A stretch of 64,000 bases of DNA from Sistotremastrum niveocremeum HHB9708 (Eukaryota; Basidiomycota; Agaricomycetes; Sistotremastrales; Sistotremastraceae), in assembly GCA_001630475.1 (NCBI GenBank), contig KV419402.1, forward strand, positions 184,333-248,332, written 5' to 3'. The notes below the pieces were generated by a model, which did not search any database, was not told the DNA's origin, and was given only the letters and a program-made list of their open reading frames with translations. The translations under genes were made by a program, and so were the position numbers. This document shows positions 31,761-62,760 of this stretch, one piece after another; the first letter of the stretch is position 1, and each line of letters opens with the position of its first letter.

Positions 31761-31889
31761 GAGGTGGATTGGCGTGTTTGAGACTCCGATAGGAAGCCGC
31801 GTGTGCCAAACAGGGACAAGCAAACTCGTTGCCGGGGAGTGTTGACGAGAGTCGTTATGTGTGAAGGGTGGATTAATGTTCTCTTATAT

Positions 31890-32790
31890 GGCACCAAGAC
31901 GTCGAATCAAACAAATATTATTATCTTATCCAAGCTCTGAATATCCAAATAGTTAGGACCTTCGTCGGCATATCTTGCCTCCCCGACGAAGACACGACAC
32001 ATTCTCTCGCATATCTAGGCTTCGAGCATCGTGATTGCGTACTTAACTCGAAGGCAAGCGACAGACGCTTCTTATTCTAATGACGGAAATGACTGCGGAA
32101 CCAAGCTTGATCAGTTGACTTCAGCGATTTGAACTTGAGACAAAGGGATCGCTTCCGACTCGTGTTCCAAAGATCTGTTCATAGTCAGTATACGAAGATT
32201 CGACTGATACAGATACATACTTCAGGTGCCCTCGATCAGGTTCGAGCCCGTAAACTCGGTGGAACCCTGGCTGGCACAGACCAGAAATGATTGTCTGACG
32301 ATCAGAAAAGGGACGCCAAACATGAGAGACGCTGCACTTGCCTCGGTTTACTGTCCAACTCTGCAAGTCAAGTGACCCCATCTGTATGACAACCGATATC
32401 TAATCCACAGTGTTAGATACCGGAATATTCCATCCCTCAAAGAGATAACGAAAACACACCTTAAGCGTTGAACAAAGCCAGTACCGGGGTACGGATTCAG
32501 CGGCTAAGGGATACCCTTGAAATCGTCAGATTAAATTTATCATATATAACAAAGATCTCAAATTCGGACGTACATGTGAACGAATGAGCGTAAAGCACTG
32601 GGAATCATGATCGTACAGGAAGACGGGGAATGTTTAGTAGGCGGCGAGTAGCAGGGGCTCAAGACCAGGCGAGATAGGAGTAAATGTGGGCGAAATAGAT
32701 GAACAGCCAGTGACGAGCTCTAGATAGAGATAGATAAGAGAGAGATGGGGAAAAGTCGACCGACCATTCGCTCTTTATATACTCCCCCAA
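31890..32790 (-). other. Q1 transcription unit (spliced, coding capacity uncertain)
   Basis: The TATA box TATATAAAG reads leftward at 32,782-32,774, followed by a leader with CCCCATCTCTCTCTTATCTA. A first short exon ends at a GTACGT donor near 32,575. An intron ending TTTCAAG near 32,520 precedes an exon whose best frame reads YPLAAESVPRYWLCSTLK, then a GTGTGT donor near 32,461. The same exon in Q3 reads YSSASLSLLHHWLCSIDK and in Q2 YSHANNSVALHWLRSMAL, so a W-L-C/R-S block is shared. The downstream frame 32,381-32,121 (SLDLQSWTVNRGKCSV) is open for 86 codons. The end motif TTGGATAAGATAATAAT is at about 31,940-31,920. No family is recognised. Q1 is the copy next to ATG15. Confidence 0.5.
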
Positions 32791-33061
32791 GGGAGAAGCA
32801 TTCGGGAAGACCGGAGAGGACGAGAAGACACGGGGGCGGGATCGACTCTATTCTCGGAACGGAGGTCTTGGCGTCGAAGACCCGGAGTACGATCTGAGAT
32901 GGGGGCTCGACAGAACGGAAGGACGCGGAAGCAAGTGCGAATGTGTGTCAAGAAAGCCCTTCCGAAGATCTCGCATCGAGCAACTTCGAAGATCTGACAA
33001 GCTGTCAATCGACCTGTCAATCGATCAGTTTCAGCGTCTTCGTGATCCCGCGATCCCCTTG

Positions 33062-34025
33062 TTAGTATCTTCCGACCAAGTCACTCACGCCCGATAGTTT
33101 CGAGTTCACCGGGCCGTATTGATACTCATCCACCGACGGCACATTTCGAACAAAAACTCTCGTATTTTGTATCCAATAATAACATACATAGACTCGAGAT
33201 CGAAAATCTCCGCAACGCTCCACATGAGAAGAATAGTACCGCACTGGTTTCCCGACTTGTACGCACTGTCATCAGCGACACCCCACACAACCCTCCGTTC
33301 CACATAGTCTTGCATCATGCTGACGAGAAGTCGTAATCGAGCTGTAGCGGCCTCGGCAATCCAAGCCAGAAAGAAATTGCTTCGGTGATGGATTGCTATG
33401 GTCTACGAGATAGTCGTTAATGATGGCATGTGAATGAACATAGCATATATGGACTTACGCCATTTCATTCCTGCAAAAACATTTTCGGTCGAAGATTGCA
33501 GACCCAGACCTCGGATGTGGTTGCACATGATTGACCTGGAGATGTATCAATATAAGACGAAAAAATTCAATATGATCAACGTACACCGATGATGACTAGA
33601 GCTTTGCTGGGAATGCAACAGCGCCACCAATGAGGACCCAATCCTGAATAAATCAGAAATATTAGTGAGATTTGTGGCGTACGAAGTGAGATAGAATTAC
33701 TTACGCCACATTACGCAGCCAGCTCTACACCCAAACAGACCAATTGAGCAGAGGTGCTACAACGCACGGTTATCACGACAAGTTCAGCTCTGATCGGAAG
33801 ACGAGACATTACCCAGAGCTACTATGAGACGCCGGATCCAACGCTCTTCAACCCTCGCTACCAATAAGCTACATAGTGAATGGCGAGTTTGGTTGGGGTG
33901 TGAGATGGCTTTTCGTAGGACCGCGCGAAGACAAGGAACAAATAAGGCAAAGATATTCAAGAAGGCAGACGTAGATGGGGGAGAGATGAGGATTTCTTGT
34001 TCAGATGGCCTGTATTTATACTCCA
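33062..34025 (-). CDS. P1 gene of the array, best-preserved last exon (protein of unknown family)
   Basis: A TATA box (GGAGTATAAATAC) lies at 34,024-34,012, then the leader CCCCCATCTACGTCTGCCTT. Four introns are suggested: donors GTAAGT near 33,703, GTGTAC near 33,580, GTAAGTCCATATATG at 33,458, and a less certain one near 33,810. The long last exon runs from about 33,405 to a stop near 33,107. It is open and reads NFFLAWIAEAATARLRLLVS, then QDYVERRVVWG, then LESMYVIIGYKIREFLFEMC, with amphipathic or membrane-like helices. P3 retains a clear relative of this end (FESMYVLIGYYIQNFLFQ), which supports coding. Upstream exons have competing frames and one in-frame stop in the third exon, so a complete protein cannot be assembled with confidence. 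No known domain is visible. Expression, if any, would start divergently from R1. Confidence 0.45.
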
Positions 34026-34440
34026 GCTTCCCGCGCTTCACGATCTGTCCAATCAGTTCTCGGGAGGAAAAGCTTGGCGTATCGATTGACAACTCCACGA
34101 TCGTCACCTTGATCGATGACAGGAAGACTTCGGAAGAAGCTGAGTATCTTGTGATCAAGAGGCTTTCCGTAAACAGTGAGCGCGGAGAAGTTCTCGAGTC
34201 CCGGGAGGATCGGCGGTTCAAGACGAAGAAGGATAGCTTGATCGTCGAGTGATCGATCGACGGAGGATCCGAAAAGATTTTCAGCAGTGGAGAGATCGAG
34301 ATATATTTAGACCTTTAGGGAACAGAAACGAATGCAATCAACTTCCCGATTGTTTCTGGCGCTCGAGCGTCATCCGAGTCATTGGCGCCCAAGTCCATGG
34401 ATTGCAGCGAGCCGATAAAATCGATAAAACCGGCGCGATA
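34025..34440. promoter_or_regulatory. Shared upstream region between P1 and R1
   Basis: About 400 bases between the P1 TATA box and R1 keep blocks seen in other units: AAAAGCTTGGCGTATCGATT then GACAACTCCACGATCGT (34,068-34,105) and the palindromic run CGATCGATCGACGG (about 34,250-34,264). Equivalent blocks occur near 41.28 and 41.45, 46.74 and 46.93, 50.78 and 50.96, and 54.61 and 54.80 kb. They look like binding sites of a bidirectional promoter; no factor is assigned. Confidence 0.45.
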
Positions 34441-34449
34441 ACAGAATTA

Positions 34450-34809
34450 TCTCTCTATATTTAGGGACGACGAGTCGTCAATTTCAGCGAGTCATAGAAG
34501 ATCGCAAAGAGTGGAACAATCGAGCAAAGAGTTGCACCAAACACGACCATCGCATGTACTGTAAATCGTCTGAAATAATCTTCTTCAAACTCCGCCACAT
34601 CCTCGTCGTCGACGCTGTTCCTTGCGCTGTTCTCAAAGCTCTGTCATGTCTTTGCCTCCTCGTCGCGTCGTGTAGGCAGTCGCAGCCTCAGCGTTGTTTT
34701 CCGACGTCTTGAAGCCTTTCAATGGCCTCTGTTGAGAGTAAGACGCGTTTATAGACATCTGAATCGTGGCTTGTGCTTACCTCAGTTCTAGGTAGCTTCG
34801 CCCTTACAA
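34450..34809 (+). pseudogene. R1, interrupted by a TIR element
   Basis: The plus-strand exon reads EDRKEWNNRAKSCTKHD at about 34,490-34,550, which aligns with R5 EYRKELKNGQEVSTKHD. After KHD the frame shifts relative to R5 and the conserved TPPHPR segment is lost. A donor GTAAGACGCGT at about 34,751 and acceptor TTCTAG near 34,791 match those of R3 and R5. The next exon (TAGCTTCGCCCTT) is cut after about 15 bases by the transposon at 34810. The copy looks inactive. Confidence 0.45.
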
Positions 34810-35958
34810 CATCAGGAAACGCGCAAAATTGCCATCACGCGTGGACGGGTTTGGACGGGTTTGGACGTATTTGAGCCCGCCAAGCGAGGGACTTAGCCAT
34901 TTTTCGCGACGCGTCTTGCTCTTTCTCCTCATAGCGCTGGTTTCCAGACCCGTGACTGGGTGTGACATGTTCGTCTTCAACCGCCACGTCAGTCTTGCAC
35001 CAGTTGCGCTCACTCAACATTACTCAACTCTCAAACCCTCAAGGCCGCTGTCAACGCCAGCCCTCGAGAGCGCGTCAATGATATGTGATTTTGCTCTCAG
35101 GCTCACTAGTACTCTCAACCCAGTCCCCCCATTTGCCTTCGATTTATCATCATCTCTTTGTTCAGTCCCTTAATTGTCGATCCATGGCAAATGGGTCAGC
35201 CGTATGCCATCCTCGTTTGTATTCTGTGATTGTCGTATTGACATAGTGTATCTTGTTTTCGTAGCTCAACTGAAGCTGTCCGCAAAGTTGTGGTAAGTCA
35301 TGTTTAATTTTGACTTGTTCTCCAAGTTCACTCGCTACTCGCAGGCAATCCTCCAGTTTTGAAGCACGCTAATCTTGAAAACTAGGTTGCAAGATCAGTA
35401 GCGATGTCGACACGAGGTTGAGCCCCATTTACTGTAAGTCAGGCAATGTTTCTAGTCTCCATATCATGTTCTGATATGATTGCGCAGGATTGTCTCGCAA
35501 AACATTGTCCGCATCTGTCTAGAACGTAGATCTCCTCATTAGGATGAACATTCATTTTTCCGTCAACACGCAAGGGAACAGACGAGGGATGAAAGTGAGT
35601 TTCTTCTTGAAATATGTTCTTCTGTGTTTCTGTATAGTAAGTCATTGGCAAATGGTAGTACGAGCTGGGTTTATAGCCACTCTACTGTAGTTTTGTTTAG
35701 TTGATTGTATCAGTGTTGTATTCCAAGATGTCAATATATATGTATTGGTTTTATTCTATGATTTTCCGATTATATGTCTGAGTGCGATCCTGGATGAACG
35801 AGCCTGATCTAGGCTGCTAGACCGATTCACAGAGCCTGTCACGCTCTCTCCGTGGTCGAGCGTGATTCTGACTACCCCCTCCATCGAGCGTGGATGGCCT
35901 CGATTGCGCTTGAGCGGCCGTGATTGACCTCGATCGGCGTTTTGCGGGTTTCCTGATG
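34810..35958. mobile_element. Non-autonomous TIR DNA transposon, copy 1
   Basis: The left end CATCAGGAAACGCGCAAAAT and the right end, read in reverse complement as CATCAGGAAACCCGCAAAAC, form an inverted repeat of about 20 bases with few mismatches. The 1149-base interior has no transposase. It carries a doubled GGACGGGTTT near the left end. Copy 2 (41750-42896) is nearly collinear. A clear target-site duplication was not identified; AA flanks both sides of this copy. The superfamily is undetermined. Confidence 0.7.
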
Positions 35959-36390
35959 AACTAGGCTCCGCTTTGATATATGTCTGCTGGCCCTCATCCC
36001 GATTGAGTATTTCGCTCTGAATTTATGCGACCATACTGTTTCTACAAGAATCCGGATGCGATGTGTGCTGTCGTCTTGGTGCTCTGGTGAACGTGCTGTT
36101 GACGAATGGGGATCTGGAAGCCTCATCAAGTAGACCTCAAAGGCCTTGGAGTCCGACGAAGCTCCTCATCAGATATTCCAAAAATTCGTCTGTGCTTCAG
36201 TCAGTATTTTCGGTTTGATCGCTGGAGATCTTTCTTATGCGTGGCACCTTCTCTAGCACATATCTGATTCAAGTTCACCTGACACCTTCCGCACACGGAT
36301 GTCACAATGCCTGTGATTATCGTACTCTCTCAGCGTTCTCTGCCACTTCTTTCACAGGACCAGAGTTTGAGTCTCCCTCGCCTTCTCTAT
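35959..36390 (+). other. Right-hand remnant of R1 and unassigned sequence
   Basis: This follows the transposon and should hold the rest of the R1 body, but little similarity to other R copies can be seen by eye. No coding region is supported. Confidence 0.25.
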
Positions 36391-38772: not shown

Positions 38773-38989
38773 TCTCTTGTCGACCGCACTAATATACATC
38801 GTCTATTCTCTACTTGTTTGCTTCTATTTGCGCTCATAATCGACAAAAGGTCGTACGCAGTTCTTTCAGCGTGATGGTCGAATTGAGAGCGCGCCACGTG
38901 TGCCAAACAGGACCAAGCAAACTCGTTGCGTTGGAGTGTTGACGGGAGTCGTTATGCGTGAAGTGTGAATGATGGTTCTCTTATATGGC

Positions 38990-39880
38990 ACCCAGATGTC
39001 GGATCAAACAATTCTTCTCAATTTATCCAAAATCCGTACCTACAGACATGATCCAAGCCGACTTCACACATTCTTCAAGACTGACCATAGCATACTTCAC
39101 GATGACACCACGGTACCGCATCCTTCCTTCAAAGACCATGCACTTCAAAGTCACAGCCTTGACCACAGTCGAGGGTCATCAAGCCACATAGAATAGGAAG
39201 GCTACATGCAAATAAAGTCAAGAAGATAGCTCAGATGAGAAGAAGGCATCACTCACAACGTCGGCCGACACACCTGCTCATATTCAGCGGACGAAGACTC
39301 AAGTGCTCTGGCAACATACCAATTTTCCCGCCAGTTGGCGCTGTGAAGTCCCAGCGCGTACTATAATAGCTGGAGGGAGGATACGAAGATCGGAAGAGGG
39401 ATAATGGATGGAGACGCTGAACGCACATTTTCCCATTGACCTCCAAACCTCTTCGAAGTCGTGACCGAAACGAGCAAACTAGCAAGGTCTAATCGCCCAG
39501 TTTAGAGACAGGCATACTATTGCCGTGAAAGAAAATGAAGGAGACACACCAAAGCCATTGAGCGAAGCCAATGCAGAGCAACGGAGTTATTGGCATGAGA
39601 ATAGCCTGTAGATCGTCAGTTGAAAACCCATCGCTACCCTCACAGGCATCAGGTAAGGGCTTACATCTTAATGAACCCTTATATGCGCTCCCCAGTCATG
39701 ACTGCAAGTCGTAACGAAAATCGTTCTGCGTGCGGCGAGTAAAAGGTCCGGATCGACGAGAGCAGGATACAAGAAAATATGTGGGAAATATATGGACGGA
39801 GAATCGATAGCGATAGATAGAGATAGATGAGAGCGAGATGGGGGAAAGTCGACCCCTGCTTGAGCTCTTTATATACTTGA
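38990..39880 (-). other. Q2 transcription unit
   Basis: The leftward TATA box reads AAGTATATAAAGAG at about 39,879-39,866. The leader CCCCATCTCGCTCTCATCTA is close to that of Q1. The exon after the CTACAG acceptor near 39,605 reads YSHANNSVALHWLRSMAL before a GTGTGT donor near 39,551. The end motif TTTTGGATAAATTG sits at about 39,030-39,015. It is followed by the block GTTCGATT-like and GTGCCAAAC shared with the ATG15 promoter. Coding beyond these exons is uncertain. Confidence 0.45.
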
Positions 39881-40239
39881 CGAGCAGAAGCATTCGGGAA
39901 GACCGGAACGGAGAGAACGGGAAGGACGAAGAGATGTGGGAGAGGGATCGAAGTTATTTTTCGGAACGGCGGTCTTGGCGTCGAAGACTTAGGGCACGAT
40001 CTGAGATTGGGGATCGACAGAACGGAAGGATGCGGAAGTAAGTGCGAAGTGAATGAATGCCATGGAAGTCCTTCCGAAGATCGCGGATCGAGACGCCGTC
40101 GAGATCTGACATGCTCTGACAGGTGGTCGATCTGTCCGATATAGCTGATGCGGGATCAAGTGATCCCCCTTGTTCCTCTTCTCCAAGAAGCTCTCGCGCT
40201 CAAAAGGTAGTTTCGATATCACCCGGCCATCTAGATCAT

Positions 40240-41200
40240 TCCCCGACGACAGATTTCGAACAATAAATTCTGTATTTTCTATCCAATAACTAACTACATA
40301 TACTCAAAACATTCGCTCTCTCGAAATACGAACAAAGGAACATGCGCTCCTCCGTGCCTTGCAGGGACAGCCTGATCTAAGAAACGGGATCGACACTCTA
40401 GGGACAGGAAACAGCGACAGCATGGACCGACAACTGCTTACTGGGACGGAGCGGTTGATGAGACGACATGAGATAGGGAGGCACATATATGGACTCACCT
40501 CGACCATTTGAAACCGGCTTACCCTCTCCGTCGGGAAGTGCTGATACAGCCCTCGCTCACCGTTACACACGAATCCTCTGGTAACATATGAACATGGGCG
40601 GAGGAAAAAAGATATAATTGACGCACCGGAAAGATGCCAACAAGCCTTGATGTGAGTTCAACATCACAAGTGACAGTCACAAGATACTGAGTGCATGAGA
40701 AAGGTTAGTGGGATTGATGGTATACTAAGCGGAGCAAAATGGGACGTACCATGCCCTGGGATATTCGCTCGGACTCCACGATAGGCCAACTGAGTCGAGT
40801 GGACCGAAATCATCGATATCCGGCGAAGAGCGCATACACGACAGCCGCAGGCAGTCGCACGCATTATGATGCATCTCATCTAGAAACCATGTCATGAGTC
40901 AACATTTGAGAACTGCAATTCGGAAGCACTGGGACGTACAACAATGACAACAATCGTAAACGCCGCTGGTACTATGCCAGAGTATTGAGCCATCCCAGGC
41001 AAGGCTATCAGATGGAATGATGAGCCAATAGCCTAAAGGTTCAAGACTATGGATCATGGCGTTGATGGGCGCAAAGTGATGAAGATGGAAGGACTGCAAA
41101 AGGAGATGCTCATATGTGTGAGGGATAACCAAGAAGGCAGACGTAGATGGGGGTGAGATGGGGATTTTCGATGCAGATGGGCTCTCTTTATACCACAGCT
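40240..41200 (-). other. P2 transcription unit
   Basis: A TATA-like GGTATAAAGAG lies at 41,194-41,184 with leader CCCCCATCTACGTCTGCCTT. Exon 2 (about 40,879-40,750) is fully open in one frame, reading YEMHHNACDCLRLSCM, then DDFGPLDSVGLSWSPSEYPR. P4 carries the related DFDPID...IGLF stretch. The next exon reads YLVTVTCDVELTSRLVGIFP before a GTGCGT donor near 40,625, but the two frames do not join with the splice sites I can see. The donor matching GTAAGTCCATATATG is GTGAGTCCATATATG here (40,498-40,484). The last part has several stops and the end motif reads TTGGATAGAAAATACAG. Probably a decayed copy. Confidence 0.42.
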
Positions 41201-41204
41201 TAAC

Positions 41205-41749
41205 GGGCTTTGCAATTCGTCCGATCAGATCCCGAACATCGAAGGCATGGAATGAGTTGGAAGAGATGTCGGGAGGAAAAGCTTGGCGTAGCGATTGACA
41301 GTTTCACGATCGCAGCCGTGATCAGAAGTCTTCAAAACAAGAGGGATCTTCAAGAAGTCTACTGAAGAGATTCAGAAATCGGACCGGAGACGTTCTGTCA
41401 TCCCGAGAGGATCGGGTTTGTAGATTCGAAGAGAGACAGCTTGAGCGCCGATCGATCGACAGTTCCGAAAGAAGCACAGCGGGAGAGATTTGAGAGCGTC
41501 CCATGACAGATCGGAAGCAGGAATGAATACAATCAATCACGCAGGACCTCTCAACTTCGACTTCGGCTTCAAGCTTTATCCGAGTTGTTGCTGAGTTTCT
41601 GGTGGGTAATTATAAGCCAACACCCCAGCAAGAAATCGAATTCATCAAACTAGACGAACCAGGATCCTACTCCGATGTTGTATCAGAATGTTGACGAGTC
41701 GATGAATCTCGTAGAGGATTGAAGATTTGAGCGAAGGTTGACACCAAAG
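41205..41749. promoter_or_regulatory. Shared upstream region between P2 and R2
   Basis: Contains AAAAGCTTGGCGTAGCGATT then GACAGTTTCACGATCG near 41,278-41,313 and GATCGATCGACAG near 41,450, matching the P1/R1 interval. CATCGAAGGC-like and GGAGGAAAAGC blocks flank them. The rightmost part is the start of R2, ending ACACCAAAG where the transposon entered. Confidence 0.45.
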
Positions 41750-42896
41750 CATCAGGAAACGCGCAAAATTGCAATCACGCGTGGACGGGTTTGGACGGGT
41801 TTGAGCGTATTTGAGCCCGCCAAGCGAGGGACTTGGCCATTTTCCGCGACGCGTCTTGCTCTCCCTCCTCATAGCGCTGGCTTTCAAGCCTGTGACTGGG
41901 TGTGACATGTTCGTCTTCAACCGCCACGTCAACGTTATTCAAGGCTCAAGGCTCAAGGCCGCCGACACTGTCAGCCCTCAAGAGCGTGTGAATGCTATAA
42001 TGAAGTCTTTTCTACTCGCAAGCTCACCCGTACTCTCGACCCAATCCTCCGACTCGCCTTCGATTTATCACTATCTTTTCGTTCGGTCAATTGATTGTCG
42101 ATTCATGGGCAAGGTGTCAGCGGTATGCCATCTTCAGTTGCATCTGTGAATCCTCGCATTGACATGGTGTATCTTATACTCTTAGCTGGATTGAAGCTGC
42201 CCGCAATCTACTCGTGAAAAGCATACGTAAGTCATGTTTCATTCTGTCTTTTCTTCAACTTCACTTTTCGCAGGCAATCATCCAGTTCTGGAGCGCGCTG
42301 ATTCTAGAGATTCCGCTTCAAGATCAGTAGCGATGTTGACGAGAGGTTGAACCTGATTCAATGTAAGTCAGGCAACGTTTCTAGGCTCCATGTCATTTTC
42401 TGATATGATCGCGCAGGATTCTCTCGCAAAATACTGTCACATCGATCTTGAACATCAAACCGCCCATTAGCAAGAACGTCGGTGTTTCCGTCAACGCGCA
42501 AGGGAACAGACGAGGGATGAAAGTGAGCTTCTTCTCGAAATGTGTTATTGCGGGTTCCTGTAGTAAGTCACTGGCCAAATAGTAGTATTACGAGCTGGAT
42601 TTATATCTACTCTAGTTTCGTTTAATTGGTTGTACTAGTGTTGTATTCCATAGATGACAATATATGTGTATTGGTTTTATTCTATAATTTTCTGACTATC
42701 TGTCTGAGCGCAATCGTGGACGAATGAGCCTGATCTAGGCTGCCAGACCCATTTACAGAGCCTGTCACGCTCTCTCCGTGGTCGAGCGTGATTCTGACTA
42801 CCCCCTCCATCGAGCGTGGATGCGCCAAGGGATGCGCTTGAGCGGCCGTGATTGACCTCGATCGGCGTTTTGCGGGTTTCCTGATGAACATGACCA
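41750..42896. mobile_element. Non-autonomous TIR DNA transposon, copy 2, inside R2
   Basis: 1147 bases with the same terminal inverted repeats as copy 1 (CATCAGGAAACGCGCAAAAT at left, TTTTGCGGGTTTCCTGATG at right). The interior is collinear with copy 1 with scattered differences, including a changed stretch near 41,938-41,970. It splits the R motif ACCAAACACGACCAAAG: the left flank ends ACACCAAAG and the right flank begins AACATGACCAAAG. It therefore entered after R2 had been formed. Confidence 0.72.
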
Positions 42897-46662: not shown

Positions 46663-46664
46663 GA

Positions 46665-50695: not shown

Positions 50696-50699
50696 TTCA

Positions 50700-51150
50700 C
50701 TAGGTCGACAATGTGTCCGGCACAAAAGATCCCGACGATCGAAGAAGTGGAACGATTCGGAGGAGAGACCGGGACAAAAGGCTTGGCGATGCGATTGACA
50801 GTTCCACTCTCGTAGCGCTGAACGATCTACAAGAGGTTGACAGAACAAGGGGGAACTGAAAGAAGCTCTCTGAGGAGATTCAGAGTTCGGACCGGAGAAG
50901 TTGTGTCATTCCGGGAGGATCGGCGTTTCAAAATGGAAGGCAGACTGTTGAATGTCGATCGATCGATGAGTCCGAAGATCTTTAGCGGAAGAGATCTCGA
51001 CACACGTGCGGAACTATCAGAGATGAGACCGAATCGAATTCACAAGTCAATTCAACTGCCCCAAGCGGGGCCAAGCGTCATCCGTGCCCAACTGTTGCTT
51101 CCGGAGTCGTTGGTATAATTCCGAGCCAAAGGTCGCGCGTATTATAGAAC
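50700..51150. promoter_or_regulatory. Shared upstream region between P4 and R4
   Basis: Holds AAAAGGCTTGGCGATGCGAT then TGACAGTTCCACTCTCG (about 50,778-50,815) and GTCGATCGATCGATGAG (about 50,955-50,972), the same blocks in the same order as in the other P/R intervals. Confidence 0.42.
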
Positions 51151-51189
51151 ACAAGTATTGCCTGAAGATGATTAGCAACAAATTGTCTT

Positions 51190-52090
51190 GAGCGAAATTG
51201 AGGATTGAGAAGGGTAAAGAGCCAAACACGACCAAACCTCAGAAATTGGGCGAAATATTCGGCTTCAAACTCCGCCTCATCCTTGCCGACACCGCTATCC
51301 TCGCAGCATGTCGTGTCCTTGTCTACATTCCGCGTCGTTCATTTGGTCAAAGTGTCCACGAGGTGGCAAGCTATCTGAAGCCTTGAATTTTATGCCCCGA
51401 TAAGTAAAAGGCGTACGAGAAGTTTTTACGACAAAGCTCTCCACCCTGCGATGTACCTCCTTCGGAGCTCTTGCCTTGATCTACCGTCCTGTCATCTCGC
51501 TCTCTGTGATCTCTATGCGTACACGCATCTTTATGGACTTCTGCATTCGGTAGCCTTTCACGCACGCGTCATCTCTTCATCTGGGGTTCGGTGAGTCGTT
51601 GCATTTTCAACTGCTGCACATTCGCGTTTCTCAACCACATCAGCTCGTCCGTGCTTTTATAGCTTGCTACTCGTCCACCCCTTGATTGATAGGTATCTGC
51701 GGAAACAGTATCATGGGTGCGTATCGTCATTATTGCCGTATACGAATTAAGAGCCAATGCAATAACAGAGCCTCGGCGCTGACTCTTCTCCTCGGACCGT
51801 CTCCATCGCACGTGTGTTCCCCTCGAAGGCTTTTGCATGCGTCCAACGATGCACCGTCCTCGACAAGCCATTTTCTTTCCAGCCAGCGCTCTCCTCGAGA
51901 TCACTTATAGCCAAAATCCCGGTCGCAGTGCATCGTTCAATTCAAGACGGACCCCGGATAAACTTTTTTCACGAACAGTGAGTGCAACAGTCGTTCTCGT
52001 TGATATCTTGAGTCACCTACTGGATGCTGTCACCGTCTTCGTGTGCTCAGAGTCTGTCTTCAATCATACCCATCAATCAACAACGTAAAA
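51190..52090 (+). other. R4 transcription unit
   Basis: The frame AKHDQTSEIGRNIRLQTPPH then PCRHRYPRSMSCPC is open from about 51,217 to a stop near 51,400 and matches R2 and R5. A stop stands directly before AKHDQ, so this copy lacks the N-terminal part in frame. A competing frame starts at 51,198 (MRIEKGKEPNTTKP). A GTAAG-like donor near 51,402 (GATAAGTAAAAGGCGTACG) is weaker than in other copies. At about 51,845 the words CCAACGATGCACCGTC recall CCACCAATGCACCGTC of R2 (43,847). Confidence 0.4.
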
Positions 52091-52209
52091 TTACCTATTG
52101 ATACGACAAAACAATATGGAACCCCTTGAATCAATATGAAAGGCTACCTTTTGTCTTGTACATTCAGAGGGAGAGCGGCTTGCGCATACTACTCACAGAA
52201 AGACTTCTT

Positions 52210-53175
52210 TCCATGCCACGTCGAATAAAAATTGGTTTATTATCCTATCCAATATCTGCTTATACAAGACGTCTTCGGGTCAACTCGACACGTCTCCATG
52301 TCAAACAAGCGTATAATCCCTGCCACTACTCAAAAATCGCGCTCGTTCCGACACCGACTATACAAGTGAGGGCTGTAACTCGCTCGCTACTCATTGGAAC
52401 CGAAAAAAATACAAGCTTCCAAGTATATTCAGCAACGCTCAATAAATTTTGAAATGCTGAAAGAGCGAGATCACTTACAAGTTGTATCTGTTCCAACCAA
52501 TACTTCAGGTTGTCCGTCAATCAAGGACCTCACAGTCGGGGAACACGACACGATAATACTCACATTCAAACACTCTCACAGCGGGATTCTTCTACGACAC
52601 CGCGAACCTCACTAACGCGGACGACAACAATCAGCAGCTGAGAATCAGTCCAATTCTGAACGGAACACACCCTGTGGATCAACGATGTCTTCGAGACGCA
52701 TTATGGTGGGAAGTTGGTAGGAAGCCGTCTTCGGGTCGTTGACGCCTTCCTGATTTTCGCATCAGCAACTCGTCGAGTCTTCACTTGCCAGCGACAAAGG
52801 AAACGAATTCGACGCACCTGTGTGAAAGAACTATCATAGCTCCCTGTGGAATTGGTGGCGGTTGTAGCACTAAGTGTTCCGCGTGATCGATGACTTTCAA
52901 ACTACAAAATGTTCGGTCTCAGGGACAAGATGAAAAGATAGTCAATGAAATTTGACATACTCATCGGGGCTCGACATCGTCCAGCACTGGTCCAATCAGA
53001 GTAATGGAGGAAGATATAAGTTCTTAAGGAGGAGCCTCAGGGCGTAGCGTCCGCAAGAAAGGGAGGGTAGAGGTGGGCATAGTGAGTGGCCGTGAGATGA
53101 ATGATGACCTAGATGGGGGTAGATTCAAACGAGATGGGGAAAAGTCATCGTTTACTCGCTCCCTTTATACTCCCC
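52210..53175 (-). other. Q5 transcription unit
   Basis: TATA-like GGAGTATAAAGGGAG at about 53,173-53,158 with leader CCCCATCTCGTTTGAATCTA. The conserved W-L-C-S exon could not be found, so the body has diverged more than in Q1-Q3. The end motif GGATAATAAACCAATTTTTA (about 52,245-52,225) has an exact AATAAA. Exons are not assigned. Confidence 0.35.
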
Positions 53176-53509
53176 AACGCACGCCAAAGAGAAAAGCATC
53201 CGGAAGATCAGATCGAGTTGCTCGATCGACGGAACGCCCGAGGAGGGGATCGAATGTTGCGCTCGGAGTGGAGTTCTTGGCATCATGATCTACATGTTGG
53301 ATCTGAGATCGGGATGGAGGGCACGGGAGGGAACGGAAGCACCTGTACAAATAGAAAGCCTTCCGATGATCGCGGTTCTTGACACGCGATCGCTCCGCCC
53401 GATTCATGCACTCCACAACCCAGCCTTTCCACTTCTCAATATTTTGAATCGATTCACTCACGCCTTGAGCCACCATGAAATTCAAGTTCAATATCGGGCA
53501 TCTGATTCA

Positions 53510-54532
53510 TCGGCTGCCGGCATATTTCGACCAAACAATTCCTTTTATTGTATCCAATAACTAAACATATAGACTCACGCATACAGCGACGCTCTACACC
53601 AGACCAGAAAGCCCTATCACTTGATCCGCTCTCCTCCCCACCTAGCGCTTCCCACTACTCGCGTACCCCGTTCCTCGATTGAGATGATAGTCGGCGGTAG
53701 GCAAGATGGGATCGCACTCCGATCGCGGTGCTCCACAATGCGTACATGCACCAAACTAGATTTGATTTCAAGGAGCCTCCCTCTACGAGTGAGCTTACAG
53801 TCAGATGACGTGAATCTAAAGGGCATATATGAGTACTTACGCCATGCCTCTACTGGATAGACACTTTCCTGATCAGCATATACGTATCCACGACATGATC
53901 AACAGTTTGAGTACGGAGTACTGTGCAATATTAATGAGAGTGTAAAAAACAATAAAAGCCATCGACATACGAGGTCAAGGCGTGACGCGACGGCATTGAC
54001 GGCGCCGGAGGGTTCGATACTGCATAAGTTCTTGGCGTCAGCGGGATTTATGGTTTAAAGAACGAGGTAGACTATACGTACCCCGGTCTCGATTTCGATG
54101 CTTGGCAAGGTGGACTGGCTATATCAATTGCTTGCCAGTCAAGCAGATTCAGTTGGATGGATGAGCGACGATACGGCGGCATTGCAAGCACTCCCAACCA
54201 AGAGCCCAGACCGCTATCGTAGTCCATGCTGAGTATACGTCTGACGACTGGAATAGGGAAGACCTGAGACTTACGAATGTTATAATGCCGTGCGAGCCTA
54301 GACTTTCAACAGAAGAGCGGCGAAGCCTTCAAGTGACGATGACGTAGAGTCCCCTTCACGAAGAGTAGCGGAGACAAAGAACTTGCATCGTTGTGGTGGT
54401 GGGATTACGCTGAAGACGAGAGTAAGAACGCCTGAAGAGACTGAGCAAATAAGGGAGGAATATCCAAGAAGGTAAACGTAGATGGGAAACAGATGGAGAT
54501 TTCCCTTGAAAGTCTCCTGTATTTATACTCCA
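53510..54532 (-). other. P5 transcription unit
   Basis: TATA box GGAGTATAAATAC at about 54,532-54,519, as in P1, with leader CCCATCTACGTTTACCTTCT. Splice sites are conserved: GTAAGT near 54,275, GTACGT near 54,080, GTATGT near 53,967 and GTAAGTACTCATATATG at 53,840. One short ORF begins MQVLCLRYSS and ends almost at once. The third exon reads VSNPPAPSMPSRHALTS or IEPSGAVNAVASRLDL in alternative frames. The end motif TTGGATACAATAAAAGG (about 53,558-53,540) has an exact AATAAA. Coding is doubtful. Confidence 0.4.
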
Positions 54533-54534
54533 GC

Positions 54535-54970
54535 TTCACGACCCGGACGATCTCTCCAACCGAAGCCTTCCAAATATCAAAGAAGGGTAAACGACTCGGA
54601 GAAGAGAAAGAGCTTGGCAGCCGATCGACGGCTCTACGATCGTGGCCCGTTCGATGAAGAGGAAGGCTTCGGATGATGAAGAGTCCATCGGGGTCAAGAA
54701 CGTTTTCCCAGGAGAGTCAGAGCTCCGGCAGTAGAAGTCCTGTCATTCCGCGACGATCGGGGATCTGGAGTCGAAGATAGACAACTCCAATGTGATCGAC
54801 GATCGATCGACAGATCGATCTGTATGACAGAGTCTCCCGCACCATAGAAGATCTCAAAACATACGAAAATTCATCCGGAATGAAGATCGATAGCCCCACA
54901 CTTTCCGAATTCAACAATTTCAAGCTTCAAGCTTCATCCGAGTTCTTGCCAAGAAATCGCTGACGAGTGA
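54535..54970. promoter_or_regulatory. Shared upstream region between P5 and R5
   Basis: Has AGAGCTTGGCAGCCGATCGA then CGGCTCTACGATCGTGG (about 54,608-54,648) and ATCGACGATCGATCGACAG (about 54,796-54,815). The CTTCAAGCTTCATCCGAG block near 54,925 also occurs before R2 (about 41,570). Confidence 0.42.
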
Positions 54971-55019: not shown

Positions 55020-56285
55020 ATGCTTCAGGAATATTTTGAGATAATTGAGTGTCGATTCTGGGAAGCCAGCGAATATCGCAAAGAATTGAAGAATGGACAA
55101 GAGGTCAGCACCAAACACGACCAAAGCTTAGAAACGCAACGAAATAATCGAGTTCAAACTCCGCCACATCCTCGCCATCTCAGCCGTTCTCGACGACACG
55201 TCGTACTCTGGTCTAATCGACGCGGCATTGCTTTCAATACAGTTCAATACAGTGCCAACGGCGTATTATGATGCTCGGAACCACGAAACAGACTGTCAAA
55301 ATGAGTAAGACGCGTTCATCCTGCCAGTCAGTCGAGTCGTATAATTACGTCGCAATCTGCTCTTCCAGTTTTGTGGTAGCCTCCCCCTTAAGACATGGCT
55401 CTGGTCGACGGGTGTACGTCTATGTGATCTTGTCCCAGGTCCGTCTCGGTCTGTGGAATTTTATGCGCACAGTGATGCTGACGGGGTTGTTAGACGCGTT
55501 GGATCGGCTGCCGTCAGGGCGCTCTGTCGAACGTGACGAACGTGGACTTAGCAGGATGACCAGGCAGATCTGCTAGAGCTCCGTAGACGTGGAGCCCGTC
55601 CGTGTAAATTCTGACATTCTCAAATGTGAACCGGTTAGTCAGAATCTCCTGGGCTGAAGCGAATTGGGTCCTCATTCGTGGCAGGATCACCCCATCCCCT
55701 GAAAAGCATACACTGGCAAGACACTCGCCGCGTTTCGTATACGGGCCCCCCTCATCAGTAAGCCTCTTCATCTTCCGGCGTTTGATGTCATCTATCACAG
55801 ACGGGATCCGTTGTTCGCTTAGTCTCCTCGCTTCATGAGCTATAATGCGTCAATGGTACGTTCCTCACTATACTCACTTCATGTTCTTCCGCTTGTCTAC
55901 TGTCCCTCTCAGTGTCCACCTGTTACCCCTCTGTGCTCGACTTTCCTTTCGACTAGAACCGCCCGATCTCAAACTCCAGAGACAGCCACCTTCGATTTGC
56001 TCATTCGATTTCAGCACCGAAGATGCTTCCATCACGAAGCGCCACCGCAACCACCGAGACATACACCACAATCCATTAGCACAGCGTCCCGAACTCGTCA
56101 TGATCAGACTCCCTCTTCTCTTCGAGAGCTTCCCACGAAGACGAATGCTACGGTCAACTGGAGCATCGATACGAACCTTCTGTGAAGATGCTCAAATTTT
56201 CGAAGACAACGAACGGGCTCCTTCTGCGATATTGCCATACAAGTCACTCAAGAAGCTCAAGTCTGCGCGTTGGATCAGTGACTGA
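55020..56285 (+). CDS. R5 gene, clearest R copy (protein of unknown family)
   Basis: An ATG at 55,020 opens a frame reading MLQEYFEIIECRFWEASEYR, KELKNGQEVSTKHDQSLETQ and then RVQTPPHPRHLSRSRRHVV. Exon 1 runs to about 55,290, where a donor GTAAGACGCGT follows; the unspliced frame meets a stop at 55,269-55,271. The acceptor CTTCCAG ends near 55,369 and the next exon begins TTTTGTGGTAGCCTCCCCC. Later parts contain two overlapping open frames (55,835-56,185 and 55,845-56,285) whose status is unclear. The N-terminal half is charged and helical. The TPPHPR-R-rich half is basic. No domain is recognised. It diverges from P5 over the shared interval and converges on Q6. Confidence 0.42.
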
Positions 56286-56634
56286 AGTCCGAGTTTCGCA
56301 TGCGTGAACGCAATTTACTCTGAAATGCTATCTTGGTCTTACTATCTTGACGACCGGCGGTGGATACTGCAAGATTTACGACTGTGACCACGGAGTAAAC
56401 TAGAGCGCTGTGAATGAGAGAGCGAACGCGCGTGCAAGTCTGAATAATGTCCTTCGAACATAATTGCTTATTTGACTGGGAAAACAATTTCTCTCAGTGC
56501 CGCAGCGCTGAAGTCTCTATTTGGCTACTATGAAACTTGAATTTTGGGGGATTGCGAAACAAGCTGAAGCAAGTTCTCTGTACGAGCTGTGTCGAGTTGG
56601 ATGTGCACCTCGCTTCTCGGCTTATTGGTAGGAC

Positions 56635-57545
56635 CGAGACGTCGAATAACATTTGTGTATTATAAAAATCAATGTCTACATATACAATAGGTTACGAAGC
56701 AAGAATACAAAGCCACCACTCTCGTCTGACTCCAAAGGACAATTTCCCCTTCAAAGTCGCACTCTTCCTTTGATGGAGTACCAAGATACCGAGGGGGAAT
56801 CTTACCCGTCCCTCTCCGTACGAACCAGCATACTCAGTCTAAGTCGATTATTTAATAATTAGCAACAAAGATATTGCCCGAGGATATAATCACTTACTGC
56901 TTAGATTCAACACAGCTGTTCTCCAAGCTTGTCAGTCGGGATTCTCGAGATCGCGTATCATCAGAACTGAAACGTACTCAAAACGCTAACGCCGAACTCA
57001 TGCTTCTTGATTCTCGCCATGGTCCCAGTCGAGACTGATGATAAGAGGTCGACGCTCGGGGATGAGAAATGATAATGAGAGTGAAAGAATGGACGCACAT
57101 TGTTTGACTCGCCTCGGCTCAGGCTCTGGGACCGACGTCCTCTGTGAACCCATCCCTGGTTTCATCGTCAGCACTACGAATCCGTCATCGACAAACCAAA
57201 CAAAAAGGACTTACAGGACATCATGACTGAAGAAAGTACGATGCGTTGAACGACGCGGCTGAGGAAAAATCTCGAGGACATTAGTTCATAGACGTTCATA
57301 TTGACACAACGCAAGATGAGGCATACCTGAGAGAGATTGAAGATCTCCAGAACGGACCCATGACTTGCGAGCAATCACATAGAACGTCGTGCGATCGGAC
57401 AGACGTAGGAGCACGTCACAGATCCGACTAGAGGACAATATGTGTGGATAGATTGAACGGACACTGCGCACCTCTAGATAGAGATAGATGGGGGTAAGAT
57501 GGGGGAAACTCGACCTTTTCCCTCCTCTCTTTATACTCCCCCAAA
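56635..57545 (-). other. Q6 transcription unit
   Basis: TATA-like GGAGTATAAAGAGAGG at about 57,540-57,526 and leader CCCCATCTTACCCCCATCTA. The downstream body shows no clear W-L-C-S exon. The end motif has decayed to TTTTTATAATACACAAAT (about 56,672-56,655), but GTTATTCGACGTC follows as in Q5. Upstream of the TATA box the Q promoter block is well kept (57,545-57,800). Confidence 0.38.
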
Positions 57546-57954
57546 CTCAGAAGCATCCGAGAAGAACGGACCGATCTGCCCGATCTCCGGAACATCTTCA
57601 TACGTCCAGGGAAGGGATCGGGAGTCGATCTCGGAGTGGGGATCTTGGCATTCAGATCTTCGCCTCGAATCTGAGATTGGGAAGGAGGAAGCGGAGGGAT
57701 TCGGGTCGAAAATATGCGCATATAGACCCTTGGCGCAAGCTCGCAAAGTCTTCTTCCCGTCCGACGATCTCGGATCTCCTAGCAGATCTCGATACGAGGG
57801 GTCACCTCCGTTGATCTAGGATATAACAAAGACCTTCCAAGGCAGCTTTTTTGACGGTTCAGGCATTATTTGTCGTTCAGAATGAAAGGTGAGGTTGTGC
57901 ATAGGGTTAGTAATTGGAGGCTGACAGATAGACAGTGACCTTGAAGTTGTGCTA

Positions 57955-58970
57955 GGGACCTGTCATTCGAGCAAAATAGTTTATATATTCTAGCCAAGGA
58001 GTCCCAAAATTACAACAATCTACCAGTGCGAAGAGACCCGAACACAGAAAAACTCTCAAATTTATTCCAGCTCACAGGGTATTTCCACGACAATTGGCAA
58101 CGCTCACTCAGCCCCGCAATCTTGTCGGATACCCTTCGCGCTGGCTGAAGCATGTAGTCCATGGAGATCCTCGAGATGGAGAACTCTCAACAGCGCACTA
58201 CCTATCCGGAAGCGACTTTATGACGCACCTGTCAAACTGAATCAGCCCGGACATATCACAATTCGAATCAAGACTCACCGACAAAATTCGTCTCAACAGC
58301 TCTCTAGCCAGCGCCAACACCCTTCACCACGTTCACTAGGCTCTCTCATTATTGAAAATTTTTCAAAAGACGAAGAACAGACTTACTTGACAGGATTCCG
58401 CGACTGCCAGGACGTTCGCAGTGTCATCGACTGGTCCAAGTGTCTAAGCTTTCTTGAAGACGTCTAGCTGACTGACCCTGACAGGGAAGTGAAGGGTCAG
58501 CGAGTGTAGACAATGAAACACCAAAAGAACATACTACTTCCCGGCATTCTTACTCAGGCTGACCCTTCATGTCGACTCCGATTCATCAGTTCCACGGTTT
58601 CTAGACTTGTTGGAACACTAGTTCCCCACGGGAGGGAGAGGTGATCGAGACCTAATTTAACCATCAGCCAGGCGCATATACACGGTGTAGAACAAAACGA
58701 CCGACCGATGATGAAGGAATGCGGGCTCTTCTGGATAAATTTAAAGTATTGCTGACTTCTGACAGTTGTATGTGTCGATCAAAGCGTGACAACCGAAACA
58801 GCGAAGGGAACAGAGGAGGAATTTAAAGGGCAAAGAGGGAAAGAAACCAGGGGTCAAGAAGAGTTTGGGACGAAAGACAAGATGGTGCGGTTTTCATTCA
58901 AGATGATGGGCGTAGATGAAAGGTAGATGGGGATTTTCGACGGCTCTTCGCAGCCTTATATACTCCATCG
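57955..58970 (-). other. P6 transcription unit, degenerate
   Basis: TATA box GGAGTATATAAGG at about 58,965-58,953 with leader CCCATCTACCTTTCATCTAC. The conserved donor has decayed (plus-strand GCGCATATACACGG near 58,673). The end motif reads TGGCTAGAATATATAAAC. No R copy follows; P7 comes next directly. Confidence 0.35.
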
Positions 58971-59274
58971 CCCCGATGCATCGGATGAGCCGGAAGAGGT
59001 TGAGAGACGATCGGCTCCCCGTTGAGATTGACATCTGGACGATCGGGGACGGACTCGATCCTCGGGAGAAAATCATATTCAAGAAGCGCTGGGATATCCG
59101 TCGATCGAGAGATCTCCCGGAAGCTTCGGACGATCGAAGAAGAGGGATCCTCGATCTACGCATACCGTAAACCCACAGCGTTGCAATCGAGAAGCAATGG
59201 AATCGATCTAGCCATTGCTTCCGACGATCGAGTTGCAGTACGTCCCTGAGCTATGTTCTGACGTTCCGAAATTC

Positions 59275-60165
59275 GGAGGGACATCTTTCGATCAAAAAGT
59301 AGCATATATTCTATCCAAGACGTACAAATATATGTCATGAGAAGAAGCGGTTCAAAGATCACCAGATAGATTGAAACGAAACCAATGCTTCGGCGCACTA
59401 CTATCTGAATGACTGGTCGTCATCAGAGTCTGATGATCTCGGAATGAGGATCTGAGATATTTGATGAGGTGGCTACGACTCACTTGTGGGATTGAAAAAA
59501 CCGTCATATTGTGGTGGCCAATTTGATCGTAATATTCCGGATTTTGCGATCGGGGACCAATGGATGGATGAATGATGCTGGAACGTATAAGCAACAAAGA
59601 AGAGCAAATCCTAAATAATGCACGCACAGCACTGGGAAAGATTGGCGCATGAAGCATAGGGCCTTGAGCATAGCACACGGGGAGAGAGGGGGAGCTGGCA
59701 TTTCAGTTAGGTCTTCGGGGTCCATCGCGAAGGAAGAGGAACTCACTATCCGTGTGCATAGGCTAGCGCCCGCACCTGAACTGGTGCCTATCAATAAGAT
59801 ATCTCTTGTTTCCAGTACATCCACCGGTACCCTGGTGGCGAGCGATCACTTGTCCTTAGATCAGTAAGGCGGAAATACACAGATAATCAAATACATTACT
59901 ATGCGATGGTATGAACAAGCGAGGTCGAGATACGACATGACCACCTCGCCTGATCGTTCATTTGCGGATTGACGTCGTAAGCCTCCCCGTTCGGGGGCGA
60001 AGTATGAGGCACTCTACGAATTATCGCCTAGGACCCCTAGTCTTATGAGATGATGCGGAGGACAATGATCGGCAGAAGAGCAAGAAAGGTAGATAGAGGA
60101 GATGGGGATAGATGGAATTAGATGAAGAATCTCGAGGTGTGATGCGTCCTTTTATACAGCAGACT
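59275..60165 (-). other. P7 transcription unit, degenerate
   Basis: A TATA-like GCTGTATAAAAGGACG lies at about 60,162-60,148, followed by repeated CCATCT in the leader. The end part reads TSWIEYMLLFDRKMSLRISE on the minus strand, which lines up with P1 IIGYKIREFLFEMCRR. The end motif is TTGGATAGAATATATG (about 59,323-59,308). No full exon chain can be drawn. Confidence 0.35.
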
Positions 60166-60689
60166 TCAAGTTGTCGGAAGACATGACCGGGGACAATCGC
60201 GATCGTTGGCAGAGATCGAAGAAAAACTAGAACAAGGGGAGGAGCAAACCGCGAACAATCGAAGCTGAGATTGGGGAATCCGAGAGCATCGGGACGGCGG
60301 GAAGGAGTCGGAAGCAGAAAATTCCAGCGCTCCGAATACTGATCGTAGGGTAAAGATCGAGATCTGACTGAACCGTCGATCCGAAGATTCGGGAGTATGA
60401 ATGCCATTTCGAGGTGAGATCGCAGGAATTGGAAGACTCGATCGACAGCTTGTTCTTCGATCGTCGGAATAGGTCCTCTTCTTCTTCAGTTGATCGCTCG
60501 ATTCAATGCGCTGAGTTCGCCAAGAGAGCCTTATGAGATCGAGCAGACACGAGATGGATGTCGAAGTCAGAGTCGTCTTGTATGGGAGAAAATCTAGTCA
60601 GCCACGTGTTCAGCACCCGTCCCTGAGCGAGAACTTGAAGAACTTTGAAAGAATGCGAGTCGCGAATCCGAAAGTACATCGCGGCACCC

Positions 60690-60910
60690 AATAGTGTTCT
60701 TTGATGAGCCCCTGAATATCTAGAAAATTGGCCAAGTCAAGGACGGAGAGCACAGCCAAACACGAACAAAGCTCAAAGACGGTGGGAGATTCTGGTTTCA
60801 AACTCAGCTTTCTTCTACACAACATCGTTCGATTACAAAACGCATTGATATCTACATTACTAGTAGTATTATTGAGCCTGATGCTCTGTTTTGAAGCTAG
60901 CTAGAAAATC
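60690..60910 (+). pseudogene. R7 fragment
   Basis: The plus strand reads ISRKLAKSRTESTAKHEQSS, which aligns with R5 YRKELKNGQEVSTKHDQSL, then GDSGFKLSFLLHNIVRL to a stop near 60,903. A stop stands just before ISRKL and the TPPHPR segment is lost. No donor was found. Confidence 0.4.
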
Positions 60911-61054
60911 GAAAACTCGCATCTCTCACCTCGTCAACCTGAAATCGATCGACTCAATGCACATCTTCTCCGTTTTGGATCCGACAATCTAAAGCGATCT
61001 GGAACAGAGTGCCGAATGTTATGATGAAGTGAGTTCACAGGCCATACAAAACTG

Positions 61055-61915
61055 TTCGCTGAGACAATTGTTCGATCACAAAATAGGATTTATTCTATCC
61101 AAGATATACATAGGTGCCACAGCACAGTCTTCCCCCACCAGATCCCTGAGAAACCAATGTAGAGTATACTAGAGGATTGCTTCGACAGCGTTATGAATGG
61201 GATTAGTGAATAGATCTGATGATTTGAGAATGAAGAAGGGCGATATAACAATGTATTTGCTACTCACTTGTGGGGGTCGGAAAGTGGTGATGCTGGGATG
61301 CTGGAAGCGGACATCCCGTTCTAAAGCTCTGTATCAGCTATCAATGGGTCGAGAAATCACGCTTGAATGAATCAGCGAGAGAGGGAAATCCAGGACGATG
61401 CACTCACAAGCCCTTGAAAGTCCAGCATATACGGAGTTTAGTATGTGAACGAGGATGCCCTAGAGTTCATTTGGAGCTGTGTAGTCGAACGCGAGAGAAA
61501 ATAAACTCACTGTTTGCTAGTCGGTGCTGACGAAGCAACGACTAGGGCTCATACAGATGGAATGCTCCGCGGGCTATCTCCTGTCGCTCGCACGTCCATC
61601 ACTCGGGAATATGGAAAGCCAGCACTCGAATTCAAAATCAGTAAGGCTCCATCAACAAAAGATTATGACTTACTCGCATTTACTACAGCATCACCATACA
61701 CCGCTCGAGTGAATCTCCTAGATGACGCTGAGAGTATTGTGAAGTACGAAGGGCTTTGGTGATAAGTTGAGCTGGGAAATCAAGAGAAAGATTCTTCTTG
61801 GACGATGCTTCGGGACGGAGTTGACAAGAAATAACGAGAATGTAGATGATGGAGATCCGGAGAGATGGGAGGAGATGAGGGATTTCGAGTTGTCGCTGAT
61901 CCTTTTATACCGCAG
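61055..61915 (-). other. P8 transcription unit, degenerate
   Basis: TATA-like CGGTATAAAAGGATC at about 61,911-61,897. The leader again holds CATCT repeats. The end motif TTGGATAGAATAAATCC at about 61,107-61,091 has an exact AATAAA. A plus-strand frame at 61,514-61,762 is open but is antisense to P8 and has no domain. Confidence 0.35.
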
Positions 61916-62424
61916 TCCTGATGGGCCCGGAACAATCGCGATCGTTGGGAAAAATCGAGGAATCGTGCAGTAAAGAAGGGATTGATCGGAGCGCTCGAGG
62001 TTGAGGTTCCAGAGACTGAGTTCGTGACGCTGAGGGGAAGGACTCGGAGGCAAAATATCCTAGCGCTCCGAGGATTGAATGCGAAGTACAGATCTCGATC
62101 ATCATGCGAAAGGATTCGGGAGGTTGAATGGCGTTCGGGAGGGACGATCGACGGCTTGAGCCTCGATCATCGGAACGAAATTCCTCTTCTTTGTGGATCA
62201 TCCGACTCAACCGGCTTTCCATCGCCAAGAGACTCTTTCAATATCCGAAGAAGACGAGACAAAAGAGAAAGTCGTCATGTACACGAGACATTCTTCAGAT
62301 CGAGAGTCTGATGTGTCACCATGATTGGAGCCGTAACGAGAGCCGCCCATACGCGGTAGCTCCGAGAAAATTTAGACAGATCAGCTAAACTTGTTTCCCT
62401 AACCTATGTTATCAAATTGCGAAT

Positions 62425-62760
62425 TTTGAGCTGTATTTGAATATCCAGAAAAATAGCAAGGAGGAGAAGAGCGCAGAGCCAAACACGACCAAAGCTTGGA
62501 AAATACGCGAGATATTCCAATTTTGAACTCCGCCTCCCTTCGACACCCCGTCGTTCTGGTCACCCCAAAACGCGCCGTGGAGGCTGTCGCTTTATCTCGA
62601 TGCAGGATGAAGACTTTGAAGCGATCTATAGGTCTATCAGGAGATCTCTCGTAGGTGCAAAGCGTTTGCTGCGGCACCACTTAGCTCTGGACGCTGACGT
62701 CTGTCGGCTCCAGCCGATCTACCATTCCAAGTTCTCTCTCGATCGTAGTACAAGCCTCTA
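62425..62760 (+). pseudogene. R8 copy, right end of the array
   Basis: The frame FEYPEK, a stop, then QGGEERRAKHDQSLENTRD aligns with R3 and R5 around KHDQS. It continues IPILNSASLRHPVVLVTPKR to a stop, paralleling R3 (HSILNSASASSSSSLP) rather than R5. It therefore shares the R3 reading-frame state. No recognisable unit follows. Confidence 0.4.

Follow-up and report, generated by a model that had tools for sequence, protein, structure and literature searches.

The window analysed here is a 64,000-nucleotide stretch of the wood-rotting agaricomycete fungus Sistotremastrum niveocremeum HHB9708 (contig KV419402.1, hereafter C9; the window is C9:184333-248332). It contains the beginning of a long tandem array made of related minus-strand units, P and Q, and of plus-strand segments, R. 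The units share one architecture, are repeated with a strong strand bias, keep their promoters, splice donors and ends better than the rest of their sequence and carry no coding signal. The reading that we favour, and that we hold to be probable though far from certain, is that they are a cluster of co-regulated, spliced non-coding RNA genes of one family, transcribed by RNA polymerase II.

An earlier note on this DNA had placed at positions 31790 to 62760 a tandem array of a three-gene unit (P, Q, R) with a period of approximately 4 kb. Comparison of the window with itself by blastn gives direct-repeat high-scoring segment pairs (HSPs) across 31.7-62.6 kb, with E values down to 2e-145 (31677-33459 versus 44224-45979); other examples are 31796-33195 versus 38893-40305 (E 1e-121) and 39772-41489 versus 49258-50995 (E 4e-98). 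The promoter spacing mostly alternates between about 1.1-1.4 kb and 2.5-3 kb, with exceptions, in agreement with that period. All 14 minus-strand units that had been listed (eight P and six Q) were found again, each with a TATA box, a CATCT leader and an end element, and the distance from TATA box to end element is 807-970 nucleotides (nt). Thus, the array is real, but it does not end at 62.76 kb: it continues for about 79 kb past the window, up to C9:327130 (position 142,798 if the window numbering is extended). On C9:217113-327130, 39 promoters were listed after scanning both strands, and all of them lie on the minus strand. A run of N interrupts this array, and both a Plavaka transposase and an eIF3a gene lie in its interior. 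The outline of a three-gene unit is right, but P and Q look like one gene class in two phases, with a common promoter design and similar ends, and R is its weakest part.

The list of 39 promoters comes from a matrix scan and from a promoter pattern, supplemented by hand with three that this pattern had missed (218352, 238859 and 249505); 235020 was shifted to 235024. Left out of it were C9:289630 and 311633, which have a single CATCT, overlapping duplicates, and 177627, 204528 and 204729, which lie outside the array. Their consensus is ctGg..GTATA.Aaggag, followed after about 20 nt by tCccCATCT and, after about 4 nt more, by cccATCTa. It should be emphasized that TATA and CATCT are kept by construction, because the pattern requires both, whereas the GATC enrichment, introns, ends and open reading frames (ORFs) are independent of it. 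In the array units, GATC reaches 29 per kb between positions -300 and -30, whereas the bodies and the left flank have about 5 per kb. In this interval, GATCGATC is found 32 times (versus 0) and TCGATCGA 50 times (versus 2), an enrichment of about 17-22 times.

At the other extremity, an end element is located 568-1072 nt downstream of the promoter in 36 of the 39 array units. With up to three mismatches, the end-element pattern has 30 matches in the genome (34,710,156 bases and 111 contigs scanned), of which 26 lie on C9:217-326 kb, all 26 on the minus strand, and the reversed control has one. Altogether, 37 end elements were used, 34 from a matrix scan (35 matches, 204742 being left out) and three from alignment (228800, 232840 and 241010); those from the scan score well by construction, since the matrix was built from 23 of them. 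One, at 257583, has no paired promoter. Recognisable ends had been claimed for most P and Q copies, and an end element is indeed present in both, but the Q type is a variant of the P type: on the P-type matrix, three of the six Q ends score 12.2-14.5 and the other three below 9.

The relative conservation of these parts was compared in nine of the 14 window units, i.e., 16 pairs (six among Q1-Q4 and ten among P1-P5). Pairwise identity is 0.56-0.75 for the core promoter, 0.43-0.64 for the 400 nt upstream, 0.52-0.77 for the end element and 0.37-0.48 for the body, versus 0.27-0.38 for shuffled bodies. The promoter and end identities thus exceed those of the bodies, in agreement with the fixed expression frame around diverged bodies that had been proposed from the sequence.

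The bodies also hold signals of splicing. According to an ad hoc rule (introns of 44-74 nt, with shuffles as control) rather than a trained splice model, the 39 units carry on average 1.72 intron-like segments on the sense strand, 0.03 on the antisense strand and 0.22 after shuffling (p 1.6e-7), and 35 of them have at least one. Furthermore, the strongest word common to the 39 bodies, found with no intron model, is the GTAAGT donor (27 of 39 versus 7.0 expected). Sense-strand intron signals above chance are what a family of spliced long non-coding RNA genes should show. The longer donor GTAAGTCCATATATG, which had been attributed to most P and Q copies, is exact in P1, P3 and P4, its only three exact copies genome-wide, and has close variants in P2 and P5; the claim was over-stated, as no Q carries an exact copy.

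The earlier note had left two options, spliced non-coding RNAs or fast-evolving proteins. The second would mean small proteins of effector or recognition type under diversifying selection, whose ORFs would be missed through wrong intron or start models. In the array, the longest spliced ORF has a mean of 61.7 amino acids (aa) versus 60.0 in shuffles, with one of the 39 units below 0.05, and once introns are removed the ORF from the first ATG has a mean of 26 codons. A spliced ORF above chance, expected from a protein-coding family, was found neither in these 39 units nor in 19 units from elsewhere in the genome. In P1-P5, only one of 15 frames is open through both internal exons, and the exon lengths do not keep the frame (AB: 59, 60, 57, 60 and 49 nt; BC: 77, 79, 78, 79 and 80 nt). 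In a Pfam search that covered the unit ORFs of the window part, all 11 ORFs of 150 aa or more fell below every cut-off, the best match being Transposase_21 (E 0.012). A 174-aa predicted product and a 208-aa R2 ORF matched no database protein at E 1, in a database that holds a protein of the genus Sistotremastrum. Rfam gave nothing at gathering scores over the window, and nothing up to E 0.5 over 31000-63500, so that known structured RNAs (snoRNA, snRNA and others) were set aside. A pheromone precursor array, as at the basidiomycete B locus, was also rejected: among the 39 unspliced bodies, short ORFs with the CaaX ending of prenylated pheromones number three versus five in shuffles. On its positive side, the protein reading has ORFs slightly above controls when introns are chosen freely, a P1 frame open across both internal exons, and a contrast between exons and introns. 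Intron interiors of P1-P5, without their splice signals, are 0.57, 0.51 and 0.61 identical, whereas the exons are 0.47-0.485 identical and shuffles 0.43-0.46. Exons less conserved than introns are also a pattern of positively selected proteins. Taken together, the results on introns and ORFs agree with spliced non-coding RNA, while fast-evolving proteins, with ORFs at chance, a frame that is not kept and no Pfam or database match for the ORFs searched, appear decidedly unlikely.

The exon and intron values concern five related units, short intron interiors and non-independent pairs. As a lead only, they suggest that P1-P5 exons are close to unrelated while their introns may still be recognisable. 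A more daring version of the non-coding reading would start from this lead: about a hundred variable non-coding RNAs could be placed under one switch, their exons diversifying faster than their introns while the promoter, the donors and the end element stay fixed. The fungus would thereby maintain many interchangeable spliced RNAs, whose differing sequences could act as guides, decoys or recognition tags. We regard this version as distinctly doubtful; if true, it would be a variable-repertoire system in which RNA takes the place of protein.

Units of the same design are found outside the array. The leader pattern has 60 sites in the genome, versus three for the control, and 20 of them are in the C9 array. 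Groups on C54, C80, C45, C68, C74 and C96 and in the left stretch of C9 account for most of the other 40, and C27, C42, C33 and C83 have one or two. At the six sites inspected (C54, C80, C45, C9 left, C27 and C42), the TATA and leader design matches that of the array. As the pattern finds 20 of the 39 C9 promoters, the genome total, about a hundred units, is only an estimate. From 21 units chosen in the other clusters, 19 could be used, two being cut by the end of the sequence piece. They carry 1.21 intron-like segments on the sense strand, none on the antisense strand and 0.22 after shuffling (p 4e-4), with at least one in 15 of the 19, and GATC reaches 25.5 per kb. Their longest spliced ORF is 63.8 aa versus 61.9 in shuffles, and none of the 19 falls below 0.05. 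Matches between C9 units and units of these clusters mostly stop about 50-70 nt past the TATA box.

This distribution bears on two other explanations. The array could be a graveyard of pseudogenes from a tandem gene family, whose promoters would be preserved by gene conversion; bodies that remain homologous in places (HSPs of 56-71%) and among which no ORF stands out would agree with it. However, most of the 39 units retain all three of promoter, donor and end element, where decay would erode the splice sites, and the promoters too. Moreover, intron signals recur at the other clusters, and cross-cluster matches mostly end just past the leader, so we consider this explanation very unlikely. The whole unit could also belong to a transposon or another mobile family, as clusters occur on several contigs and transposon insertions are found nearby. 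Against this, the C9 array is on a single strand throughout, no inverted pair flanking the unit appears in the self-comparison at E 1e-6, which did not extend to short terminal repeats, and both the element with inverted ends and the Plavaka transposase were inserted separately. This last possibility is extremely unlikely.

A further alternative is that the units are precursor clusters of small RNAs, their spliced transcripts feeding Dicer and Argonaute and the diverged exons giving small RNAs of varied specificity, or a silencing triggered by stalled splicing. Piwi-domain matches, the mark sought for an Argonaute-type gene, occur at five loci of the genome; a clustered array on one strand with transposon insertions and kept splice donors would also suit such a role. 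However, folding of 20 of the 39 units gave a mean z of +0.22, with no excess that would indicate hairpin precursors, and a DNA search with the P3 body matched nothing else in the genome at the sensitivity used; therefore, that one body is not made of repeated transposon pieces. We give this alternative a small but appreciable chance.

Several observations weigh against the family of spliced non-coding RNA genes. In the C9 array, three of the 39 promoters have no end element and four of the 39 units no intron by the strict rule; in the other clusters, four of the 19 units have no intron and just 11 match a loose end pattern. Upstream regions also hold intron-like segments, with 0.40 per 850 nt on the sense strand and 0.00 on the antisense strand, and weaker body words, namely CCCTCG, AGTGCT, TGGCTTT and CCGTTCAA, exceed shuffles as well. 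Freely chosen introns give ORFs of 77.7 aa versus 63.8 in shuffles and 65.4 in the reverse complement, and three units reach 138-174 aa in this way; this small excess is taken to reflect real splice sites. To this are added the single open frame of P1 and, as a lead only, the lower conservation of exons than of intron interiors in P1-P5. Promoters of the C27 cluster are on both strands. Lastly, C27:438289 and C42:20896 (65%), like C27:442245 and C42:12382 (61%), are alike over their whole length: bodies can therefore be kept, and these two clusters look like one duplicated block.

The R segments had been counted as seven. The head element, CCAAACACGACCAAAGC...TTCAAACTCCGCC, is present at six window sites, and a seventh copy, near 42.89 kb, is interrupted by a transposon-like insertion. 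The six intact heads are 516-599 nt upstream of a TATA box, whereas for one head past the window the closest TATA box of the list is 1117 nt away. Between units, in 15 stretches (those under 400 nt, over 6 kb or containing N being left out), 18 intron-like segments are on the plus strand versus two on the minus strand, although three of the 18 lie inside transposon-like copies. From this bias, R is probably transcribed divergently, from the plus strand, and spliced. Its predicted ORFs are 236 aa (R2), 146 aa (R5) and 177 aa (copy past the window). A conserved protein gene was rejected for R, as no R2/R5 protein pair is among the best 90 of 144 window ORF pairs.

The coordinates of the units and of the two insertions are given in Table 1.

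Table 1. Units and insertions of the array in the window (window positions; TATA boxes and end elements by position)
Feature	Position	Strand	Remarks
P1 unit	33132..34320	-	GATC-rich upstream region, TATA 34020, CATCT leader, introns, end element 33176
P2 unit	40242..41492	-	TATA 41192, end element 40286
P3 unit	45654..46958	-	TATA 46658, end element 45698
P4 unit	49689..50992	-	TATA about 50690, end element 49733
P5 unit	53513..54827	-	TATA 54527, end element 53557
P6 unit	57953..59262	-	TATA 58962, end element 57997
P7 unit	59274..60456	-	TATA 60156, end element 59318
P8 unit	61058..62209	-	TATA 61909, end element 61102
Q1 unit	31889..33195	-	TATA 32781, end element 31933; conservation extends about 400 nt upstream
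Q2 unit	38986..40305	-	TATA 39875, end element 39030
Q3 unit	44424..45720	-	TATA 45320, end element 44468
Q4 unit	48464..49806	-	TATA 49360, end element 48508
Q5 unit	52208..53469	-	TATA 53169, end element 52252
Q6 unit	56631..57835	-	TATA 57535, weak end element about 56675
R1 head	34497..34616	+	conserved element CCAAACACGACC...TTCAAACTCCGCC, 516 nt upstream of P1 TATA
R2 head and body	42887..43992	+	head split by transposon-like element; plus-strand intron-like segments
R3 head and body	47195..48226	+	three plus-strand intron-like segments
R4 head	51182..51414	+	
R5 head and body	55071..56285	+	58% to R2 over 1147 columns
R6 head	60690..60860	+	short, weak
R7 head and body	62439..63138	+	three plus-strand intron-like segments
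Transposon-like insertion, inverted ends, in R1	34810..35961	.	not part of the unit
Second copy of the transposon-like element, inside R2 head	41750..42889	.	not part of the unit

Other elements are inserted in the array or lie beside it. The block of 80% identity shared by R1 and R2, which was at first taken for part of the unit, is the transposon-like element of Table 1 and was set aside, full copies being also found on C4 and C35. This 1.14-kb element, with inverted ends CATCAGGAAAC..., has four full copies with 80-100% identity to the query copy, the two outside the window being C4:1197909-1199051 and C35:194518-195686. Neither window copy has a stop-free stretch of 150 aa or more, and the element looks like a non-autonomous DNA transposon. 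An inverted repeat pair between R1 and Q2 (36526-36647 and 38013-38142, 69% over 131 columns) is perhaps another insertion. Past the window, the array contains the Plavaka transposase with an adjoining DUF6830 ORF (C9:268375-271067) and the eIF3a gene (C9:273791-275287). The position of the latter, inside the array, argues against a centromere, which, like a subtelomere repeat, would be expected to be gene-free. Searches for tRNAs led to their rejection, and short tandem repeats were limited to three small ones, one of them within the transposon-like copy at 34842. With at most one mismatch, (TTAGGG)4 has no match in the genome, versus seven for the backwards control (GGGATT)4; the assembly may lack its telomeres, the search may have skipped them as simple repeats, or they may belong to another type.

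On its left, the array adjoins a histidine kinase gene with HAMP repeats (window 24177-29090). Farther left, a family of long single-exon ORFs occurs in both orientations (6376-8067, 13672-15201 and 16062-17549); the first is 95% identical over 489 residues to a protein of Sistotremastrum suecicum HHB10207 whose source name starts with F-box. A transporter gene of the Ost-alpha type (Solute_trans_a) is present as a tandem duplicate (839-2336 and 9555-11105, 62% DNA identity).

Among the matches listed in the open literature, no title or abstract describes an array of such units. Grass PHAS precursor clusters comprise many clustered non-coding loci whose common short signal is a small-RNA target site, the rest being diverged, whereas the common signal here is the promoter, the splice donors and the end element. 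The class I RNA genes of Dictyostelium are likewise clustered and have a common upstream element, but their RNAs are short and unspliced. In the mushroom-forming fungus Ganoderma lucidum, the long intergenic non-coding RNAs (lincRNAs) treated in the available part of the article are single and considered with neighbouring protein genes, and that text contains neither the word tandem nor the word TATA (PMC4059649). Non-coding transcripts, here predicted, would be common to both fungi, whereas the array described above has about forty related units with one promoter, splice and end design. The tandem arrays of ant odorant receptors reportedly have bidirectional promoters and antisense long non-coding RNA (PMC12393541). 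They resemble the present array by the tandem order, the repeated promoters and the divergent antisense transcript from the promoter region, predicted here; unlike these receptor-encoding arrays, the fungal one has no coding signal and most of its units have their own end element.

If the units are spliced non-coding RNA genes, the sequence would be consistent with the following scheme. The TCGATCGA-type palindromes that crowd the interval from -300 to -30 are probably bound by a common factor, and the TATA box would direct initiation close to the first CCCCATCT, which lies about 30-45 nt downstream. Splicing would then remove one to several short introns, and the transcript would end at TTGGATAGAATATA...TTTTGTGATCGAA. 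We infer both the transcription and splicing of the units and their control by one common factor. The benefit could come from transcription at the locus itself, from transcripts serving as feedstock for chromatin or small-RNA pathways, or from a variable RNA repertoire. As the start, the splice donors and the end are kept, making the transcript seems to matter, while its text would matter little or be free to vary. Selection would thus maintain the production of a spliced, cleanly ended transcript rather than the RNA text.

Functional non-coding genes are usually argued from the conserved sequence or structure of their transcript; here, the conservation lies in the signals by which a transcript would be made, spliced and ended rather than in the transcript itself, and this holds for about forty units of a single locus and for further ones elsewhere. 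If these units are transcribed, they would provide a replicated natural test of the making of spliced RNA as a selected function.

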